Below, piece after piece: positions 2,351 through 61,066 of a stretch of DNA of 64,000 nt; within the stretch, counting starts at the first letter, position 1, and each line of letters begins with the position of its first letter. The notes below the pieces were generated by a model. It made no database searches, was not told the DNA's origin, and saw nothing but the letters and a program-made list of their open reading frames with translations. Made by a program: the position numbers and the translations under genes. Source of the DNA: Dryomyza anilis (taxonomy: Eukaryota; Arthropoda; Insecta; Diptera; Dryomyzidae); the NCBI GenBank assembly GCA_951804985.1, contig OX638131.1, positions 43,189,121-43,253,120 on the forward strand, written 5' to 3'.

Positions 2351-2966
2351 TCCGTAAGGCGTAATTGCTGCGGCCGAGACCGAATATAGGTTGTAATGGC
2401 CAAATAAGTAAGTAAGAAAATTTTGTGGTGAGTTTTAGTATGGTGAATTTCGGTGTGGTGAGTTCAGAGAATTTGGGATGCTTGGTATACACTGTTGTGA
2501 TATATATTGACATCACTGTAATAACTATCGACATACACCGTCTTGAAAATAAACCTTCAATGGGTGGTCACGCCCAGTGGTCCAGTTACGCCCACATTCG
2601 GAGAGTCTATTTAGAATGGTTAAATATTACGCTTACAAAAATTTCATTAAATTTGCTATCCCAATTGCTTATAATATATGTTTTTAATTTTTGGGTTATA
2701 TGGGAGGTGCCACGGCCAGTCCAAAAATCTCACCAACATATAGCCTATACTCTGAACACATCGAACATACATCTTAATTTTATTCAATTCGGTTCAGTCG
2801 TTTTGACGCTTACATACATACAGAAACAGATACAAACATTCACAAATAGATTCCGGACACGCCTCCTTCTGGATAGCGTGTCCGGATAACTAAATCGATA
2901 ACTAAATCGAAAATCATGTGAATTAATCATTTTTCAGTGTTTTTCGTGATACTAATTTTTAATAGT
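2351..2966. other. Spacer, no gene seen
   Basis: Contains the resumed GTGGTGA minisatellite at 2424-2465. The stretch at about 2560-2890 (ACGCCCAGTGGTCC, then CCGGACACGCCTCC near 2856) resembles decayed mini-me-like DNA. No coding region is supported. Confidence 0.45.
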
Positions 2967-3266
2967 AACGAGTTGGGAAAGTTAGGTCACATGGGTAAGT
3001 TCGGTCACATGGGGCGGATTTTTATAGTCGGTCGGGCCCGACTATGGAATACCCTACACCTTTGGTGGAGATATTAATGAGGAATATTTAATTGTATACC
3101 TTAATTTTAAATTTTTAACGAGTTGGGAAAGTTAGGTCACATGGGTAAGTTCGGTCACATGGGGCGGATTTTTATAGTCGGTCGGGCCCGACTATGGAAT
3201 ACCCTACACCTTTGGTGGAGATATTAATGAGGAATATTTAATTGTATACCTTAATTTTAAATTTTT
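2967..3266. repeat. 150-bp tandem duplication inside copy A1
   Basis: Positions 2967-3116 and 3117-3266 are the same 150-bp unit, starting AACGAGTTGGGAAAG and ending in TTAATTTTAAATTTTT, with no difference that I can see. Copy A4 carries only one unit at the equivalent place (about 5515-5664), so the duplication is specific to A1. Confidence 0.9.
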
Positions 3267-3962
3267 AATTATGCTGAACCTCAGAATATTATTCATATAT
3301 CAGAAATTTACGTCTTATATCCCCATAAATTAAAAAATTTATATAAAAGTATAAACAACTAATAAAAAATTGAAAAATATAATTGGGCGGACCACGCCTA
3401 TATTTAAAATTTTGAAAGGCTAATTTTTCATAGATTTGATTTTAATAATTTACGGATCAAATTTTTACTATGAAAACCCGGGATATAATGAAAAAAAAAA
3501 GTGGGCGGATCACGCCCATTTTTGGACCACATATTTTTAGGTAAATTCTAACAATACGTTTTAAATTTTATAACTATACCTTGAATACTTTTCGAAATAT
3601 TAGTTTCGAAAGAGTTATATAAAAGTGACTTGTATGGGAGGTGGGCGTGTCCGTTGACCGATTTTGCTCATTTTCAAACTCAGTTCCTACTTTTGGCTAA
3701 AATATATTGAGACGAAATTTCATCGCATTCTGATCAGTATTTCTCAAGTTATTCTGTATTCGGACAGCAAGACAGCAAGACAGCAAGACAGCAAGACAGC
3801 AAGACGGACAGACAGACAGACAGACGGACATGGCTAAACGGACTCGGGTAGTGATGCTGATCAAGAATATATATACTTTTCCATACCGGACACGCCTCCT
3901 AAGGGGCGTTACAATATATGCACAAAGTTAATATACCCTGTACCTCATAGGTGTAGGGTATA
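2967..3962 (-). mobile_element. Mini-me-like element, A type, copy A1
   Basis: Read on the minus strand it starts with a hairpin (TATACCCT ... AGGGTATA), then CGCCCCTTAGGAGGCG, a TATATATATTCTTGATCAGCA core next to a TA-rich run, and a (GTCY)n tract at about 3766-3830. It ends after several CGCCCAC blocks and GTCGGGCCCGAC near TTCCCAACTCGTT. A core between TA-rich and GTCY proto-microsatellites is the hallmark of dipteran mini-me elements, which have been described as non-LTR-derived. No protein is encoded. This copy carries a 150-bp tandem duplication at its far end. It is near-identical to copies A3-A5, so the family was recently active. Confidence 0.85.
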
Positions 3963-8608: not shown

Positions 8609-8700
8609 TCCTTCGAGCCGGATTTGAACCAGCGACCTATGGATAGCTACACTTTCAACCGAACTACAGTCCACCGCTCTACCAACTGAGCTATCGAAGG
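8609..8700 (-). tRNA. tRNA-Tyr-GTA: tRNA-Tyr (GTA) with a 19-nt intron
   Basis: The minus strand gives a full cloverleaf. The acceptor stem CCTTCGA pairs with TCGAAGG, followed by discriminator A at 8609. The D arm contains the A box TAGCTCAGTTGGT. The anticodon loop reads CTGTAG then A, with anticodon GTA. The T arm contains the B box GGTTCAAATCC. A 19-nt intron interrupts the loop after position 37, the usual place for eukaryotic tRNA introns; tRNA-Tyr genes in flies characteristically have one. Removing it leaves a 73-nt mature tRNA. T-rich sequence follows downstream on the minus strand (plus-strand A run at 8563-8580), suitable for pol III termination. The gene looks intact and functional. 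Confidence 0.95.
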
Positions 8701-20392: not shown

Positions 20393-21270
20393 CTACCGAC
20401 AGCCGCAGCCGACCACCGTCATGTCCTGATAGTTCTTCAGCACAACTGTGTTTTGGTCATTGAGATAGAGCATCGATATGCCGGTCAGCTGTGTGGGCAC
20501 ACAACACGCCTTTGGTACCTTCCCTGGGTTCAGATTATTGACTAAGGTCTGCACGACCGCGTGGTTCGTCGAGTTCAGATGCTCCGCCAGCGGAAACGGA
20601 CACTTTCCTTGACAGTAGTAAGCATCGTAGCCGGGTGGCGCTACGATCCAATCACTCCAGCCCACTTCCGAGAAGTCCACGTACAGCGACTGCCGGCGGC
20701 AGATCTCCTCATGGTTTTTCCTGCGGTGCGGCCGGTGTGAGCGACCGGCGCGCTTCGAACGCGTGCTCACGTCGCGAATGGAGCGCGACTTGTGCCGTCC
20801 GTCGTCGGTGTAGGTGAAGAGTAGTGGCTGCTTGTGTGACCAATCGTCGTGCGTCTCGTCCGCGCTGCGGCGCAGTCGCACATGATGATGTGGGGCCGGC
20901 TTGAGCGCGCGGAATGTTCGCACCTCGATGAGCAGGCCGTAGTTCTTCTTCGGTGTGTCCAGCCACCGATCGACTGCCGGTTGCACGTCCAGGCTGACGG
21001 TGTCAGTGCTGTTCAGACGTATCGTTTTGTTGTCCAACAGCAAATATGTGGGCTCCCGCTTTCCACGAATGCCGACGCGCGTGATGTCGTAGACGAGGAT
21101 CTGGTAGCGGGTGCGGTTGGCCATGTGCGGATTCCACGCCGCATGACTGATGACGTCGCGCGACAATTGCAGTTCCGCCGCCTTTAGCTTCTCGTCCGAC
21201 GGTATGCTCTTGGTGTCGAACTGCAGACGAAATCTGTGATGGTGTGGGAATCGATCGTCTATTTTACTAT
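20393..21270 (-). CDS. dpp: Decapentaplegic (Dpp) BMP-type ligand, coding exon 2 (C-terminal half)
   Basis: Second coding exon, residues 304-595, ending in TAG at 20393-20395. The acceptor is TTCCACTTCCAG at 21271-21272, and the split codon G|AT rebuilds the conserved [14 protein letters not shown]. It encodes the rest of the TGF-beta propeptide domain, with N-glycosylation sites ANRT and LNST. Furin-type sites are RLRR (435-438), RSIR (466-469) and RSKR (474-477). Then comes the mature ligand, whose cystine knot begins at Cys494: seven cysteines in the pattern C..YYCQGKC..KACC..GCGCR, with [14 protein letters not shown] conserved. The secreted dimer signals through Thickveins/Saxophone and Punt receptors to Mad. 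The mature domain is nearly identical to D. melanogaster Dpp. No frameshift or stop is seen. Confidence 0.98.
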
Positions 21271-22088: not shown

Positions 22089-22998
22089 CTTGATGTGTAA
22101 AACTGCGTACGGTGTTCGCTGATTTTGTTAACAATCCAGGTTTCGGTATGTTTACCGAGTCGATTTCGTGTCCCATAATTTGGGCATACAACTGCTTCAT
22201 TGCTTCTGGAATGATGATTTTGGAACGATCTATTTTTGGTGGCCTCTTCATGTTGAATAATGATAGCAGGCTATTCTCGATTTGGACTAGTGTTGATGGA
22301 TCTGGTTGAAGTTTTTCGCTAATAGTCTCTTTATTACTAAATGATTCGTCGTCGTCATCGTCATGTAATGAGTCACTGTCAACACCATCAGCATCATCGT
22401 GGTGATGGTCTTCATGATCCTCCTGTTCATCATGCTGTTGGTGGCGGTCATGTGAGTCATGGGAATTACTTTCTTCCACGGCCATTACTGGTTTCAATTG
22501 TACTTCCTCTGGTGACGATTCAGATTTTTCCGTTTCTTGCTTATGATTGTTTTCAATATTTTCTAATTGGTCTACTTCAGTTTTTGTTCTGAGGTTTTCC
22601 ACACTTGGATGAATTGGGTTGGCGGCACCCTCCGTTTCTTCGATATTATTAATTTGTATAATTAAATTATCGTCACTTATATTACTTGAATAATTATCAC
22701 TATCACTGTTTTCATATAAAAATGTTTTGGCTAATGACGATGATGTTGATTTGGATGATGATTTCGATTTGGATGATGATTTCGATTTGGATGATGATTT
22801 CGATTTTGTTTTTGATTTCAATGTCGATGATATATCTCCGATCACTGGATTCGCTTGATGTGGTGTCAATGCTAATGTGGTTGTAGATCTCATTGATATC
22901 GCTGTGATGAATCTCGATGATAAATCCTCGGTGCTAGCAACTTGAACGATCGGTTTAAAAGTCGCCAGCACTGCGAGGAGTAGAAGCCATGCGCGCAT
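22089..22998 (-). CDS. dpp: Decapentaplegic (Dpp), coding exon 1 (signal peptide and prodomain)
   Basis: First coding exon, residues 1-303 plus one base of codon 304. I start at the ATG at 22996-22998 because it gives [14 protein letters not shown], the same signal peptide start as Drosophila Dpp, followed by [11 protein letters not shown]. The upstream in-frame TTG is not a credible start. The middle of the prodomain is poorly conserved and of low complexity: a KSKSSS repeat at about residues 62-82, then an acidic/histidine-rich stretch ([20 protein letters not shown]). The conserved part resumes at [20 protein letters not shown], then [18 protein letters not shown] and [20 protein letters not shown]. 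The exon ends in phase 1 at the donor GTAAGT. The joined gene gives 595 residues. Confidence 0.97.
22742..22812. repeat. 18-bp tandem repeat inside dpp coding exon 1
   Basis: Plus-strand unit GATTTGGATGATGATTTC, just over three copies. On the coding strand it encodes the six-residue repeat KSKSSS. It keeps the frame because the unit is a multiple of three. The tract lies in the variable prodomain and is probably length-polymorphic. Confidence 0.85.
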
Positions 22999-23013
22999 GG
23001 TCGCTTGCAACTC
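22999..23013 (-). other. dpp 5' UTR stub and 3' splice site
   Basis: Minus-strand TTTTTGTATCGTTTCAG is followed by only AGTTGCAAGCGACC before the ATG (AG at 23014-23013, exon from 23012). Drosophila dpp likewise has alternative noncoding 5' exons spliced onto a common coding exon just upstream of the ATG. Confidence 0.75.
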
Positions 23014-23095
23014 TGAAACGATACAAAAACATTGAAAATGTTAAACACTGGTTAAAGGGTTAAAAACTCAAATTAGTCAGAATAAGATCACTGTG

Positions 23096-23192
23096 CACGA
23101 GAGCGCGCTCTCACTCTCTCTCTTGCTCTACGTGATAATGTGCGTGGGAGTGAGATAGCATCAATATATATGTACACTTGTTAGAGAGAGCA
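23096..23192. promoter_or_regulatory. GAGA-type (CT)n tracts just upstream of the dpp coding exon
   Basis: GAGAGCGCGCTCTCACTCTC and the following CTCTCTTGCTC (about 23100-23128), plus TTAGAGAGAGCAC near 23180, are GAGA-factor/CLAMP-type sites. GAGAGCGCGCTCTC is a perfect palindrome. A TATATAG lies at about 23197. It may be an internal promoter or a chromatin-opening element. Confidence 0.4.
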
Positions 23193-23383
23193 CACTATAT
23201 AGGTAAAGAATTATTGCTCACATTTTTGCGCTCTGCAGAGAATTAAACTCATTAAAGGGTTAGTTACTCTATCGTGCCGAGTCTTCTCTAAAAACAAAAA
23301 TCAGAAACTCTGGAGAGTGCCTGCGTGTGTGCGTGCAGGAGAGGATGCAGTGCTCGAGTGTGCGTTCATTCGTTAGAATATTC

Positions 23384-25013
23384 GGAAAACCCCGTGACAG
23401 TCTCAATCAGCATCACTAAAGCACCAGCCAACGCAACCCTCAATATTGCATTGCTCTCCCTGTTTCAGTCGGCACTACCTGATACATCCATGGGATGCAC
23501 TTGCGCGATGTCGTGCAGGTACAGAGACCCGGGCAATCTGTGCGAGTGTGAGTGTTTATTGAGCCTCATCAAGTTTTGTTCTAAATCTCTCTCGGTTAAG
23601 GATACGATTTATGCTTGAGTAATTGCAGGTAGCCGCAGTTATTAATTCTAGGGATTAACTAGGACACAACACTATAAAACATATATGGTATTTTGTTTAT
23701 TACTATTATTTTGCATTAATATGGGTGCAGTACGTGCGACTCAGAATGCATTGTTCTAGAAGAGTCAATATCAAATATTTGGACGAGTGTTATATCATTT
23801 TTGATGATGATCAACGCAAGTATTTGATTTAGCCACAAAGTTCGTAAATTAATAAACGATTGCATAATATATATCCGTTTATAATTATGCGGTACAAACA
23901 ACGAAACATTAAATAGAGAAGCCATTTCCTGAGAGCCTTCTTCGTTACTTAGAACCTACTTTCAAGCAAACTCTATGAACGAGAGCGAAGATTTTGATGT
24001 AACCTACATTCGAAGTTTCCTTTTTTTTACAATTACTGATTTATTACGAAGAAAATACTCTTCGTGTATATGATGTACCAAGCATTAGCCTAATTGTTCC
24101 TATTACTAAATCACTAAAACAAACTAAACAATCAAATTAAGTAACGTTGAAATATCCACTTATCGCATATCGCATATTTACATCAGTGTTACAAAATGTT
24201 TTTCCCCCTCCAGTTCTTGATTTCTCACAATTAGTTACTCTTTAAAATTGGTGTACATCGGTCGATCACTATGCAACTGTTTGGTATGCGGAACCCATAT
24301 CAAATCTAAGTACAATCTTGTTCTTCAAGCCATTAAATCTCTCTTGGAATCAAATCAAAGCAACCGTGCGTGCGTGAGTGGTACCTTTTTCCAAACACTA
24401 TCGTACAAAAAATGTATATTAGAAAATTATTGAATTGGTTATTTTTTTTAGTATTTGGTAATAAATTTCCCTGGCGGATGCTTAGAGCTCTAGATGAGAC
24501 TCAGAGATAGAGCCGTCGAGCCCATGAACGCATGCATGTTGTGTGAAGACGACAAAATCTACATCAAATTGCGGCATGTTTTTCACATAAAGATTAAAAT
24601 CTAATCAACATTATTGTTAAATATTTTTAAGTTCAAATTATCTTGGCACACGCGGGGGGTGACGCATCGCAAGGTTTAGGTACACATACTACATGCTCGT
24701 TCCGACGTTTCGAAAAGAAAATCGATGATTTCGATAAGAAGTGTATATTGGGTTAGCCAGACAACTAAGTGGCGGACGGATACCTACTTGATAGATCTAT
24801 TGTTTGTACTCTGACGTCTCTTATTGGTATCTCTGGTATGCTGAAATAAGTGGGATTTTCCATGACATACTTGAATTGCAGGTTTATTATGGCTCATCCG
24901 GTGCAGGCGAAAATTTTGCCTGCTCCTAGCTCGAGCAATTTGGCACTAAAGCAGTTCACAACTAGTTGGGGTTTTCCACAGCCGGTCAGGCCGAATCGGT
25001 AACGCACTACCTG
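23384..25013. promoter_or_regulatory. Candidate early-embryo dpp enhancer and ventral-repression region
   Basis: Zelda sites: CAGGTAG at 23475-23481 (minus), 23626-23632 (plus) and 25007-25013 (minus), plus the variant CAGGTAC at 23516-23522. Dorsal sites: GGGATTTTCCA at 24852-24862 and GGGTTTTCCA at 24969-24978, both full consensus, plus GGGTTTTCCG (minus) ending at 23384, one mismatch. Two Dorsal sites and one Zelda site fall within 162 bp. Drosophila dpp is activated across the early embryo and repressed ventrally by Dorsal through intronic silencer elements, so location and motif content both fit. Confidence 0.6.
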
Positions 25014-26981
25014 TTACCGTTATGTTGAGTAAGAAGCATACATATTAACGAGGTGCATAAAAAGCAGTCTCTATTCAAGTTTAAAATGGAAATACCACGC
25101 GCGTGTATTAAACGACATTGAGAATATTTCATAATTCGGAAATACGCGTGTATTTCACTTTCTATACAAAGTGCCAAATAATAATTGCAAAAGTATTCAA
25201 AATATTTACACAAGCCCAAGCAAGAATCCAGCTAGCTAAATTATTTAAAACTTTTCAAGTATCGTTAACGATAGTCCAAACTATTGCCCAAGATAAAACA
25301 TTTTTGGCTGGCGCACGTATCGGCATCGATCGAACCCACGTCGTGCGCAGAAACAGAAAAATTATATTTTATAGCATTTCTCCGACATATGTATAAAGAA
25401 GAAAGAATGAGTGCGAAAATAATAGAATTATTAAAACATGGCGATAGCAAAGTAATAATAGAGACAAGCTCCAGATATAAGTGTTGAACTTCGCGAACAA
25501 TTTTATTTGAGAACAATAAAAACGATTTTAGGAAACTTCTCGGAACTTCTCTAGGGTGTCGCATACAATATTGCCACAATTTCACACATTTTAGTGGAAT
25601 ATATAACGCTGTACATCACGTAATTTTGTAGTTTTTCTTTTTTTTTATTATTGAATTGAACAACGATAAGAGGTACCTCTTACAGCACACACACAGCGGT
25701 TTGAAGGTGAGAAGTAAGACATTGTGAGATATAGTGCGGGATAATGGTATAAATCATTTACAAATATGTTTACCGTTATGTGGGTAGGCACTACTCAAGG
25801 GTGCTACAGTCACTCATACAGGTGTTCTGTCGTTCACACGTAACAGATCGATTCAATATCGTAGATATTATCGGCGCAAAGTGAAAAACATATGTGAAAC
25901 TAATCTGTGGTAAGTAAGATACTTGTTATCTTAAGATATTTTACATAACTACCAACAGAATTCTTATGCATTACAATATAGCAGTCAATGTCAATAATGT
26001 ACACCCCCAAATTATGCAGTTTAATCAAAAAATGTGTTAAAAAAGAACACCTAAATCTTTTAAATACATTCTCCATTTTATCTTAAGTCATTTCTAAATA
26101 TTGAGTGAGTAGAAAATCTGGATTGATTAATTAAATTAGAAAAAAATATATTTTCAAAAATGATTTCCAATAAATTATTTTGTTTATTTAGGTTTAATAT
26201 TTATATATTATGTTTGATCCCCCCCAATGTTAATAACATTGAAACAATTTTTGCTGAGACATATGAAAATGTAAATGGAAACTACAACAAGCCAATATAG
26301 AGTTCAAAATGATGTGAAGACTAATACAAAAAAAAAACAAACTTTAATTAAAGAATTAGCAAATTTGAAATGAAATTCAATAGTACTACATGTTCGAAGT
26401 TAAGTATTTGTGTTTCAGCAAATAATTTAAACATGAGACCGTTTTTTTTTCTTTTTTAAGACAGTCCCAAAATGTTGGTTTAATTGTCAGCTGGTTGGTA
26501 TGCCAGAAATTTGATTTAATTCCAAACAATCGAAAATGCTGACCAAACAAACTAGAAAATCGAATTGAAACCAATGTGGTAAATAAACTACAATCGGTTC
26601 TAAACAATTGATGATCAGCTTTAGATATTGTATTGCTTTAGGTTTAGTTTTTGAGACACATTTTCATTTTAAACTTAGTTTAAACCTAATGCCATTTCTT
26701 TTAGAGTCAACATATTTTAAAAATGCCACATTACCAGACAGCTAATTGCCTTTCTGTCTGTAAAATTTAATGATATTCTGCCGTTTTGATTAGAAAATAT
26801 AAACGTTTTAAAACTGCGTAAAAGTTTAAACTAAGTTTTAAACTTGCACTGAATAACTGGAACTCAGTGAGATATATAGACGAAATCGATGCAATATTAA
26901 TAATAAAGAGACTCCATTACAGAGCTATACTCAATTTTTAATTATTTCTAATCGTAATAAATATGTTTTATTAAGATTCTC

Positions 26982-27202
26982 TATACTCAGAACAAAGCTA
27001 CAATTCAATTAATTGTTTTTACTATTGAAATTAGTCAATATGATTAACTATTAATATAATTTGTAAATCCCATTCATATTAAAAAATACTATACAAATAT
27101 TTTTGAGTTTGTATGAAAATATTTATTTTTTGTATAGTATCAAATCAAAAACTATCGTATTGAAAATTTTTCATAGGATTTTAGGAGATTTTTTCTGAGT
27201 AT
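26982..27202. mobile_element. MITE-like element, family M, diverged
   Basis: Left end TATACTCAGAACAAAG and right end GATTTTTTCTGAGTATA are inverted. Internal family words are present (ATTGAAATTAGTCAATATGA and TTTTTTGTATAGTATCAAAT). About 220 bp, noncoding. Confidence 0.65.
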
Positions 27203-27423
27203 AGTATTTGCTTACGATTTGAAATATATCATGATAATCATATTGTCGGTGATACTGCAAATCCGCCTATCTACATTTTTTAATACCTCTTACAAAATAA
27301 ATTTTACAAAAAAAACAAAACTAATTTGAGTCTCAATTTTGAGCTTACTTCATACAAAATTCAACGTAATTTTCACATGCAGTTAGGCGGTTTGCAGTAT
27401 CGTCGACGATATTTCAAAAATTT

Positions 27424-27770
27424 GAATGGATTTTCTGAGTAGTAGTCATTACAAAGGTAGAGATAACTTTTACTATCTCTACTATGTTCCGAAATCATTG
27501 GTATTTTAATGTTGGAGATCACCTATTCTATCGAGAAATGCAAAATACAGAGTTTGTCGCCTATTTGACCATCTAATAAGGTAAATTTAACCGGGAAATA
27601 TAGAGTAGTATCTTTTCACAATTATATATGAAAAACTCGTTTGGATTCTCCGAGTAGTAGTCATTACAACGGTAGAGATAACTTTTACGGTTCTGCTTTA
27701 AAATATGTTCCGAAATCATTGGTATTTAAATATTGGAGATCACCTATTGTATCGAGAAATGCACTAGTAA
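27424..27770 (+). repeat. Two-copy direct repeat, about 120 bp, 229 bp apart
   Basis: The block TGAGTAGTAGTCATTACAAA then GGTAGAGATAACTTTTAC, ATGTTCCGAAATCATTGGTA and GGAGATCACCTATTSTATCG occurs at about 27436-27540 and again at 27664-27766, with small differences. It adjoins the foldback element and may be part of the same larger element. Confidence 0.7.
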
Positions 27771-27771
27771 G

Positions 27772-28147
27772 GAAGAATTATACCGCGAAATACACTAGCC
27801 CTACAAGAAATTGAACTAGGGTTATGAACGTGATTAGTTTATTGTATTTTTAACTTGCCCCAACCCCCAACAGTTAGATTACTAAAATGATAAGACCATG
27901 ATCATGTCTTTCCTAATAGGGCAAATTTCTGCTAGGGTACCAAAGTTACATGGTCGAATAGATGGAAATGTACTTTTTTTAGCGTAGCAGAAATTTACCC
28001 TATTAGGAAAGACATGATCATGGTCTTATCATGTTGCTAATCTAATTGATGGGGGGTTGAGACAAGTAAAAAACACAATGCACACACCTCGTTCATGCCC
28101 TTAGTTCAATTTCTAGTAGGACTAGTTTATTTCCCGTTATAATTTAT
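27772..28147. mobile_element. Foldback element with about 165-bp inverted arms
   Basis: The left arm starts GAATTATACCGCGAAATACA, and the right arm on the minus strand starts AAATTATAACGGGAAATAAA. Both continue through CTAGAAATTGAACTA-like sequence to a near-identical block: GATAAGACCATGATCATGTC then TTTCCTAATAGGGYAAATTT then CTGCTA. Only about 40 bp separate the arms. A transcript of either strand would form a long hairpin. No coding capacity. Confidence 0.8.
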
Positions 28148-28218
28148 TTTATTAAACTAAATTGCACTGCGTAATTAACCCGAGTAATACTCGAGTTGAA
28201 ACCATTTTCAAAACTCAC

Positions 28219-30950
28219 CTCAGTCTTATAAAGTTTCCTGTGTTTGTCAGTTGATGATTGTTCCGTCGAGCGGCTGTCTCGAACGGTATGCCTCGATGTG
28301 TGTATGTGTTATTGTAAATTGTTTACAAATTACTTAATGAAAATGATCGATGATCAATACAGATGAGTGTACGTAGAGTGTTCCGTGTGAAGGAACGAAC
28401 GTTGTTGGGTCGAATGTCAATAAATGCGACACTTTCTGAGAATCAATATTTGATCGTTGTTTTATGGTAGCGGCTGCTTCCGTTTTTTATTTCTTATTTT
28501 TTTTGTCACTCAATGTGTAAAAATTCAAAAATCACAACGGGGTAAATAACACAAATTTTCACTAGTTTGTTTTCTGTTTTCTTTTTTTTATTTTTCTTTT
28601 CTGTGCAGCCTGTTGCTAGTGCAAATAATGCAAACTGTTCGAGTATGAGAAATGCACATTAAATGTTGCCTTTGGTGGGTTGGGGAGGGGGGTGTTGTGG
28701 TTGTTTAAAATGTTTTACAATTTTCGGCGATAGTTGTAAATGAAGAATATGAGGTTTTTATTAAAAACTTTCCACTTTTTGCTCAACAGTTTTTGTGGTG
28801 TGCGTTGAGGTTGTCGTTGTTGCTGGCGTCTGTTGTGTTGCTGTTGGCGGCGATAACGAGGTTGCTGTTGTCGGGGATGCGTCGTTTTTGGTGGCAAACA
28901 ATTTGGACATTTGACGGAGCTTATTATCGGGTTGAAGGCAAACAGCATCTAGTAGGTGGCAGCGTCTGACGTTAACGGTAACTGGCGTGGTGCAAGGCGT
29001 CGTGTTGGAACGGCGTAACATGACAATCAGCGCACGTCCTATGGCTGTCTGTCCTGCTCGTCCTGCGTTCGAAGTCTAATGGCACTGTCGTTGGGTAAAG
29101 CCTTCCGGACTCTGTGGCATGATCTTCGCTAGTCGCCGATGTTGAATGTTGCCAACGTGGATGGTGGATCAGTGTGGCAGCAACAAACAGCTGGATGTTG
29201 TGGGGCGGTTTCAGCAGCAGCAGCAACGTAATCCAGACTCACTAAAGCAACTACTACGGTTCCGTAGCGCACACGTTGAAAATCCAGTTATTGTTGTTAA
29301 TACGAAAACAAACAACAACAACATTAGCAGTAGCAGTAGCAGTAGCAGCAGCAATGTTCGAATAGCAGCAACAACATTATCTACACACAAAATTCATATA
29401 TAATCGCATGAATTAATAACAACGAAAAAATTAAAACTCGATATTCACACAGGTGTCTCATGTGTGGATCGTGTTGGCCCCGCTCTCCGTGCGCCTCGTT
29501 CCGATCCGCTCTCTTTTACCTCACTTCACTGTATCGTATATCTTACAGATATTTATTTATTTTTCTTGATGTTGTTATTTTTGTTGGATTTTTTCGATTT
29601 TGTAAATTTATTTTGAATGCTTTCTGGTACCAAATTGAAATACAAAAACCCAAATAAAAAAAAAAGAAAAACGCGCGCCGCGTAGCTTTCGACGTTACGT
29701 CGTTTCTGACGTTGTATCGTCGTCGTTGTTTATCGTGACGCGTAACGTGTTTAACGTTTCAATTAGTACATTCCGAAATGTGTTACGATTTTCGGATCTA
29801 TATATCGATCGTTCAGTTATCACAGAGATCACTTTTCCAGAAATTGCTTGTTTAGTTGTTTTTGTTGTTGTTGTTGGTTGGTGTTGTATTTGTTTTCTCA
29901 CTGACACAGTTATCCAAATACCGAACCGATCGACCGCGCTCTGACAATTCGTATTTTGATGATTTGTTGAGTTTTTGTCAGTTTCTCAATTTTTATTTAA
30001 ATTTATCGTTCAAAATTTACACTTGATGTTTTCAGAGTTTTCTATGAGATTTCAATCCAACTCGTCGGATTGCATTCCATTCAAATTGTTTTGCCGAAGT
30101 TGCGAGTTGCTTAATTAGTATGCGTAAGTTGCTCTTGCTTTATTGTTTTAATTTGTGAAGAAATTATTTTTTCAATCAGAATATTTTTTTTCTTTGTAAA
30201 TTAAAAAAAAAAAATCAATGTTAATTTTGAAAACTTTGTTTTTTTTCGAAATATTTTTTTTCTGTTGCTGATCGCTTTCAATATGCAGCAGCGATCTTCA
30301 CAAAATAGATTTAAACTCGATCAGCGCTGTAGAACGACTAACGCCTATCTGTCTACCTGAATCAATAATCCGTTGAATGCGATCGGGCACTCGTTCGTGC
30401 GACTCTGCGATCAGTTCGGTTCGGCTCGCCTGTCTACAGCAGCTACAGAGTAACGTTGTCTCATATGCAGTCGCTACCGCCGCCGCCGTCGTCGTCGGCT
30501 TTGCTGCTGCTGCCGATCGAGCTGTTGCTGGTGCTTTGGCCTTAGCGCCTGCCAGCACCTCTGCGGATAGTGCGTATATGCAGCGCGTCGTGCGCTCTCT
30601 TCACCAGTCTGCGCCGCATCAGCCAACGACATCAATGTCTCTCTCTCGATCAAGCCACTTGAAGACGCCTTGCCTTCACTCTCAGTTCAGACTGCGATCG
30701 TTTGTAGTTGATTGCATGCACATTCTCATCCACGGAATCTGTGTCCGATCGATCGTTCGTTCGTCTGGAATCTTAAACCAGAGGATTCGCTCAAGAGTGT
30801 GTGTTGTTGTTGTTTTTGTTTTAGACGGTACTATATGCCTTGGACGAGTGCCGAGTACTGACGGCATTCGATGATAATTGGTTGTCGTGGAGCAGCACTC
30901 TGCATTGTTTACAATTGCCTCTCAGAGCTAAAACAAGTGCGTTTAGTTAG
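28219..30950 (-). promoter_or_regulatory. Candidate dpp noncoding 5' exon(s) and promoter region
   Basis: The donor ACTGAG|GTGAGTTTT at 28219/28218 would end an exon extending to higher coordinates. The region is GC-richer than its surroundings and has several trinucleotide tracts: GTTGTTGCTG-like at 28800-28870, CAGCAGCAGCAGCAACG at 29213-29230 and AGCAGTAGCAGTAGCAG at 29325-29350. Drosophila dpp has a long embryonic 5' UTR exon. I find no convincing initiator or TATA box that fixes the start. The open frame at 30377-30874 on the other strand is alanine/valine-rich low complexity and is not accepted as a gene. Confidence 0.45.
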
Positions 30951-47308: not shown

Positions 47309-47619
47309 ATAACAATAATAGTTTGGCGCTACAGTCCTGTACAGAACTTCGGCCGAGCTCTCTCACCATTTTGAGCTGTGCGTGTTATATTTGTACTCAA
47401 ATTGGTGGGACCTACAGTTTATTGCCGAATCCGAACGGCGGGTGAGAGCTTTTCATAGGCAATGGTTTTACTCTCGTAGGTTTGCCGTTTACTGACGAGA
47501 GGTAGCGCGGTATAGAAAAATGTTTCTATGAAAAGATGTTGTTAGCCGCAGTCCAGGCTTGAACCGGGGACCTTTCGACTCGCAGTCCAACGCACTATCC
47601 ACTGAGCTACCGCGGCAAC
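47309..47619 (-). mobile_element. tRNA-derived SINE, full length with 13-bp target duplication
   Basis: AAATATGTGAATA at 47296-47308 and 47620-47632 flanks a 311-bp SINE on the minus strand. The head is GCCGCGGTAGCTCAGTGGAT with B box GGTTCAAGCC, and the tail is AACTATTATTGTTATT. It shares about the whole body with 39752-40058. It is one of the youngest-looking insertions in the window. Confidence 0.93.
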
Positions 47620-60299: not shown

Positions 60300-61066
60300 A
60301 TAGTATATTCTATGAATTTGTCATTGCGACTCATTCAATCACCATATTCATCCCATTTATGAATCGTTCATAAAACCTAATGAAAAAATTCATAAAATTG
60401 ATGAACAAATTCATAAATAGTATGCATTTTTTTCTGTTATGTATAAACATTTTACATACTTAAAAAATATTTTATTTTTATTTGCTTATTTTTTATTATA
60501 TTACTTTTACTTTTAATTTTTTTCTTTACTACTTACATTTTATATCTACTATTGCAGTTAATGCCTATTGCTGCTTGTTGTTGATTGATGTTAGGTACCT
60601 GCGGCACACGTCGTAAACAACAAAGAAAACTGTTTGCCCTATATGTACGAAATAACATACGAATAAAAGGCCAAGAAATGTATCTGTCATCATCGACTAT
60701 AGACGCGTCGCGACGCGCAGTGAAAATAATCACTGCCCGTCGTTACTCATGACGCACACATACGTTCATACTCAAATATCTACCTTCCCTTTTCTATACT
60801 GGGTTTTTATTTTATTTTTCAGCTTCGTCTTTACCATAGACTGAATTACACATGACGTGGAGTCTGCGCTGAATATGAATACCCAAATGAACGCACTTCA
60901 TAACAATAATGAACGCGTTTATTATGTTAGTTTTGCACAAAATGTGCGATTCATATATACGAAGAATAGTTCATAAATAGAATGATTATTTTCATAAATA
61001 TTATGAATCGTGTCTCAATTATCGACGTTCATTCCATTTATGAACTACATTTTTCTGTGTTGGATC
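60300..61066. repeat. TTCATAAAT-rich repeat flanking a GC-richer core
   Basis: TTCATAAAT or TTTATGAA words recur at 60355-60440 and 60960-61050, and the two blocks share the order ATTCATNCCATTTATGAA and TTTTTCTGT. Between them 60540-60950 is GC-richer low-copy DNA. It is possibly a decayed element with terminal repeats. Confidence 0.4.

Follow-up and report, generated by a model that had tools for sequence, protein, structure and literature searches.

The stretch between positions 23384 and 25013 of the window (the 64-kb piece of Dryomyza anilis DNA that was analysed as a whole) is, with a probability of roughly 0.8, an early dorsal control element of the dpp gene. By analogy, it would be the functional equivalent of the intronic ventral repression region of Drosophila, joined with early activator sites. 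The sequence-only reading, which took the cluster for an early dorsal-ectoderm enhancer, is very probably right. The evidence comprises the gene itself, the Zelda and Dorsal sites, their density above background, the single copy of the stretch in the genome and an oriented pair of sites that is also present at zen.

Two coding exons on the minus strand of the window (22998–22089 and 21270–20393) join into a Dpp protein of 595 amino acids. The product is a Dpp-type TGF-beta ligand with a prodomain, as is proper to a dpp orthologue; a domain search of the second coding exon returns TGF_beta (E 4.3e-37) and TGFb_propeptide (E 1e-20). Its closest solved relatives in the PDB are BMP2 chains (best E 6.2e-54), and its 8 best-ranked protein matches, all of them named fly Dpps, display 82–87% identity across 63–65% of the length. 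In a tree of 25 rows, which was rooted at the midpoint and contains several long branches, the protein stands beside, not inside, a 19-row group of drosophilid, calyptrate, Glossina, tephritid and Teleopsis proteins (support 96/91). Judged by its predicted protein, the gene is the dpp orthologue of a schizophoran fly. The prodomain also has an 18-bp unit repeat at 22739–22831, encoding a Ser/Lys-rich run, and a long Asp/His-rich stretch.

The site cluster is very probably intronic in dpp, because a splice acceptor at 23013 and the best donor of the gene strand at 28219 flank it. The acceptor sits 14 bases ahead of the dpp ATG, and the donor (GAG/GTGAGT) scores highest among all 3307 GT dinucleotides of that strand. 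A position within a dpp intron, one of the features of the ventral repression region, is thus found on the predicted intron 28218–23013. Up to the donor at 28219 the gene strand has A- and C-rich stretches, and 30301–30900 is G+C-rich; by composition, the DNA that precedes 28219 resembles a long untranslated leader. The coordinates of all features are given in the table.

Features of dpp, its predicted 5' intron and the site cluster (positions in the window; a slash marks a splice junction)
Feature	Positions	Strand	Remarks
dpp second coding exon	20393..21270	-	mature ligand and C-terminal prodomain; acceptor CCACTTCCAG/AT
dpp first coding exon	22089..22998	-	ATG at 22998; donor CAAG/GTAAGT, rank 2 of 3307 GT on the gene strand
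Predicted dpp 5' intron	23013..28218	-	5206 bp; acceptor GTTTCAG ends at 23013; donor GAG/GTGAGT after 28219
Dorsal-like site CGGGGTTTTCC	23384..23394	-	near-consensus GGAAAACCC at 23384-23392; 11-mer common to a zen Dorsal site
CAGGTAG, Zelda word	23475..23481	-	exact word match
CAGGTAC, weaker Zelda word	23516..23522	+	among the Zelda heptamers in an excerpt of PMC3197689
CAGGTAG as TTGCAGGTAG	23626..23632	+	10-mer common to the zen cluster
Dorsal site GGGATTTTCCA	24852..24862	+	full consensus
Dorsal site GGGGTTTTCCA	24968..24978	+	contains GGGTTTTCCA at 24969-24978; identical 11-mer upstream of zen
CAGGTAG, Zelda word	25007..25013	-	28 bp from the Dorsal site ending at 24978
Predicted 5' leader exon and promoter region	28219..30900	-	end coordinate guessed from composition
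Fourth CAGGTAG of the window	30353..30359	-	within or close to the predicted leader/promoter

Each Zelda and Dorsal site named in the sequence-only reading is present where it had been placed. Its count of two Dorsal sites and one Zelda site in the 162 bp from 24852 to 25013 was accurate, and its assignment of the cluster to the dpp 5' intron agrees with adjoining exons that encode Dpp and with the acceptor and best donor that flank the predicted intron. The window contains four CAGGTAG words, three of them in the cluster and one at 30353–30359; CAGGTAC occurs once elsewhere, at 60595. The CAGGTAG at 25007 lies, as seen by eye, within a short inverted repeat (CGGTAAC...GTTACCG, 24997–25019). 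Elsewhere in the window, strict Dorsal words form a close pair just once, in a perfect tandem duplication at 2966–3268, the 150-bp unit of which contains the Dorsal-like word GGGTATTCCA. Rfam detects two tRNA-like genes on the minus strand, at 8609–8700 (61 bits; with 92 bases it may contain an intron) and at 47544–47616 (38.8 bits).

Site density was compared with that in 20 stretches of this AT-rich genome, which were not randomly drawn and amount to 195 kb of readable DNA. This background contains 3 CAGGTAG and 7 strict Dorsal places per 195 kb, so that about 0.025 and about 0.06, respectively, are expected per 1630 bp; the cluster has 3 and 2. The count of CAGGTAG thus lies above background, as in a Zelda-bound early enhancer (3 vs 0.025 expected), and so do the several Dorsal sites typical of a ventral repression region (two full and one near-consensus). 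Background windows of 1630 bp have at most one CAGGTAG each, and it is combined with a strict Dorsal site in 974 of the 162,420 overlapping windows. The Poisson product for at least three CAGGTAG and at least two strict Dorsal sites in a given 1630 bp is 4e-9, or 4e-7 at the upper-95% background rates; the stretch having been picked by eye, neither value is corrected for this selection. The chance figure of 0.2 CAGGTAG in 1.6 kb, given by the sequence-only reading, is correct for even base composition; the genome background rate gives about 0.025, and the enrichment had therefore been understated.

Chance was also simulated with an order-3 Markov model of the window, recording the largest count per 1630 bp in 400 runs. 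Three CAGGTAG were reached in 0.5% of the runs and the loose Dorsal count alone in 1%; the combined counts of CAGGTA with strict Dorsal words (6) and of CAGGTA with loose Dorsal words (8) were each reached in 0 of 400. The counts of CAGGTA alone (4), of strict Dorsal words alone (2) and of a wide set of eight Zelda words (5) are within chance, being reached in 8%, 10% and 28% of the 400 runs, respectively. The model overproduces CAGGTA (15.3 vs 7 in the window) and underproduces strict Dorsal words (1.9 vs 6); it is therefore strict for CAGGTA and lenient for Dorsal. Three of the six strict Dorsal words in the window are one word copied, two of these copies in the tandem repeat. The strong Zelda word and the combination carry the signal; the weak sites do not. 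Measured against simulated and unrelated DNA, the proposal of an elevated motif density is borne out for the strong words and for their combination; in the simulation, CAGGTA alone, strict Dorsal words alone and the wide Zelda set stay within chance.

These last three frequencies are what speaks for a chance gathering of short words. That the cluster is such a gathering, or a set of splice donors (CAG/GTAG), or a repeat, is nevertheless hardly probable at all, since no simulated run reached the combined count and since the same combination of sites stands at zen. As splice donors the CAGGTAG words were rejected: the two on the sense strand take only ranks 115 and 116 among the 3307 GT, and of the four Zelda words two lie on the opposite strand. 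A repeat or transposable element was rejected likewise, the stretch being single-copy in the 656.6-Mb genome with one full-length place and one partial match of 45 bases elsewhere.

The zen gene of the same genome was located at C3:53892000 through its homeobox, which is 92% identical to that of Drosophila, and the 6 kb upstream of zen were read. Between 4.4 and 4.9 kb ahead of the homeobox, two CAGGTAG, GGGTTTTCCA and GGGAAATTCCA are found within about 475 bp, and a further strict Dorsal word, GGGATATCCA, lies 1.3 kb off. At both genes GGGGTTTTCCA is followed by CTACCTG in equal order and orientation; the gap measures 28 bp in the dpp stretch and 39 bp upstream of zen. The pattern GGGTTTTCCAN{20,50}CTACCTG, framed only after the sites at both genes had been seen, has exactly two matches in the searchable (non-N) genome, at dpp and upstream of zen. 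Genome-wide, there were 0 matches for its backwards-read control and 0 for the pair at a gap of 51–81. The other orientation gave one match in the genome, an isolated pair; the 8 kb read around it contain no additional strict site and no open frame of more than 115 aa. Two copies of the word GGGGTTTTCC are present in the dpp stretch and one at zen; the 20 background stretches have none.

With the wider word GGGWWWWCCM and a gap of 10–40, 6 places were obtained vs 9 for the backwards control; besides dpp and zen, the 6 places comprise a single repeat in four near-identical copies (C3:59760267, C5:13960993, C5:29377082 and C6:19121757). The other orientation gave 5 vs 14. Dorsal-Zelda pairs are thus not enriched genome-wide, because the wide-word counts stay below those of the backwards controls. 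The telling point is which two genes carry the exact pair, not how frequent the pair is. Outside the sites, the dpp and zen stretches share 17 9-mers vs a background mean of 17.06, which is no excess, and an overall similarity of the two stretches beyond the sites was rejected. Their longest common exact word is the 12-mer ACCTACTTTCAA (at 23954 and at position 2959 of the zen locus L025), found, among the loci compared, at these two places alone and in loci that overlap with them. Two CAGGTAG likewise precede the homeobox of a second zen-like gene at C3:53905265 (75% in the homeodomain); together with GGGGTTTTCG, which is one base off a Dorsal site, they lie within 110 bp (L024 1089–1194), some 300–400 bp before the homeobox.

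It is conceivable, though in our estimate rather unlikely, that dpp and zen share an oriented code of GGGGTTTTCCA, a spacer of about 28–39 bp and a convergent CAGGTAG, the fixed order of which may help to mark the Dorsal site for repression and not for activation, either replacing or complementing the partner sites known from Drosophila. A narrow search of open papers, which cannot show the pair to be unreported, found no report of it.

The match with zen also bears on how far the cluster acts as one unit. As a tentative alternative, which we regard as plausible without favouring it, 24852–25013 alone would be a Dorsal-responsive silencer and the Zelda trio at 23475–23632 a separate, Zelda-opened element with other duties. 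A distance of 1.2 kb separates the trio from the full Dorsal sites, and neither CAGGTA nor a strict Dorsal word occurs in this interval; it is the tight oriented pair that is mirrored at zen. The third Dorsal-like site, CGGGGTTTTCC, argues against this division, however, as it is also present at zen and is separated from the proximal trio by about 80 bp. A single early dorsal control element extending over the whole cluster remains our preferred reading.

Sites alone cannot separate repression from activation. The kappa-B consensus is common to Rel proteins, and GGGGTTTTCC fits it in its general form; the stretch might accordingly drive Dorsal-activated expression, or bind another Rel protein (Dif, Relish) in an immune role. 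Both are very unlikely, as the presence of Zelda words next to the Rel sites points to the blastoderm, the match at zen points to Dorsal repression, and the Twist word CACATG is absent from 23013–25700. In lateral (neuroectoderm) enhancers that are activated by Dorsal, Twist and Snail words are linked to the Dorsal sites. Such linked words were not found in 23013–25700, and an enhancer of this type is disfavoured because both CACATG and the Snail word CAGGTG count 0 there; a single palindromic CATATG stands at 25386.

Other words were counted in the same interval, 23013–25700. Dri-like RATTAA shows no excess (6 vs 10.2 expected), the Capicua word TSAATGAA counts 0, and one GAATGAA at 23365 lies near the Dorsal-like site at 23384. 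Among the Dri-like and Capicua words counted as candidate partners of repression, none stands out. The STAT word TTCNNNGAA likewise shows no excess, with one palindromic site. A core promoter inside the stretch is not favoured (Inr-like words 4 vs 9.1 expected, TATA-like words 1 vs 7.1). Among further targets of Dorsal, the Dorsal-activated gene brk was read over its 3.2-kb locus and 5 kb of the 10 kb upstream; this DNA lacks both CAGGTAG and strict Dorsal sites, and contains one CAGGTAA and two TAGGTAA. The site words are thus not confirmed at a further target, because the brk DNA read lacks a strict site of either kind. The 3.3 kb around a sog-like CHRD exon also contain no strict Dorsal site and no CAGGTAG; sog enhancers may be distant.

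Ventral repression regions were reportedly described for Drosophila dpp by Huang and colleagues in 1993 and for zen by Ip and colleagues in 1991; both studies are cited in PMC5331681. According to an excerpt of this later paper, Dorsal represses zen and dpp through such regions, that of dpp being intronic, and Groucho is bound early at both. The same excerpt states that partner factors beside the Dorsal sites are needed to turn Dorsal into a repressor, and calls the way in which they do so unclear. In zld mutants, dpp expression is abolished, and Zelda binds dpp regions (PMC3197689, in part). In S2 cells, a fragment of the dpp promoter responds jointly to Zelda and STAT, and its Zelda site supports activation (PMC3102735, in part). 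For Musca, the accessible part of PMC5956798 has site analyses of tolloid and sog, dpp not being among them, and the accessible parts of PMC11469670 and PMC10847725 contain nothing on the dpp intron.

The cluster resembles the Drosophila dpp ventral repression region in its gene, its intronic position and its Dorsal sites, and a Dorsal-dependent ventral silencing would be expected here by analogy. It belongs to another fly, however, and the two are likened by gene, intron and type of site, not by sequence alignment. With the zen cluster of the same genome it has in common that strict Dorsal sites and CAGGTAG stand together, with the pair equally ordered and oriented; the zen cluster differs in being upstream, not intronic, and its site flanks look more AT-rich by eye. 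The 1.3-kb promoter of Drosophila dpp contains one Zelda and two STAT92E sites (PMC3102735, in part). Here, a CAGGTAG likewise lies in or near the predicted leader or promoter, at 30353; the lack of a TTCNNNGAA excess in 23013–25700 is a difference.

Based on this dataset, we propose a mechanism in which binding, activation, repression, the Groucho step and timing are carried over from Drosophila. Zelda, which is present in all nuclei, would bind the CAGGTAG words and open the chromatin, which would permit broad activation of dpp at the start of zygotic transcription. Ventrally, nuclear Dorsal would bind the GGGTTTTCCA and GGGATTTTCCA sites and, together with Groucho and a partner protein, would silence the promoter, which we estimate to lie 5 to 7 kb upstream. 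Such ventral silencing would leave dpp on dorsally.

An element type that is already known from Drosophila would thereby be placed, as an early control element of dpp, in a fly that has a large genome and belongs to none of the usual model groups. The oriented Dorsal-Zelda pair common to dpp and zen may be new, and this exact motif pair provides a testable lead on Dorsal repression that is common to two classic repressed genes.
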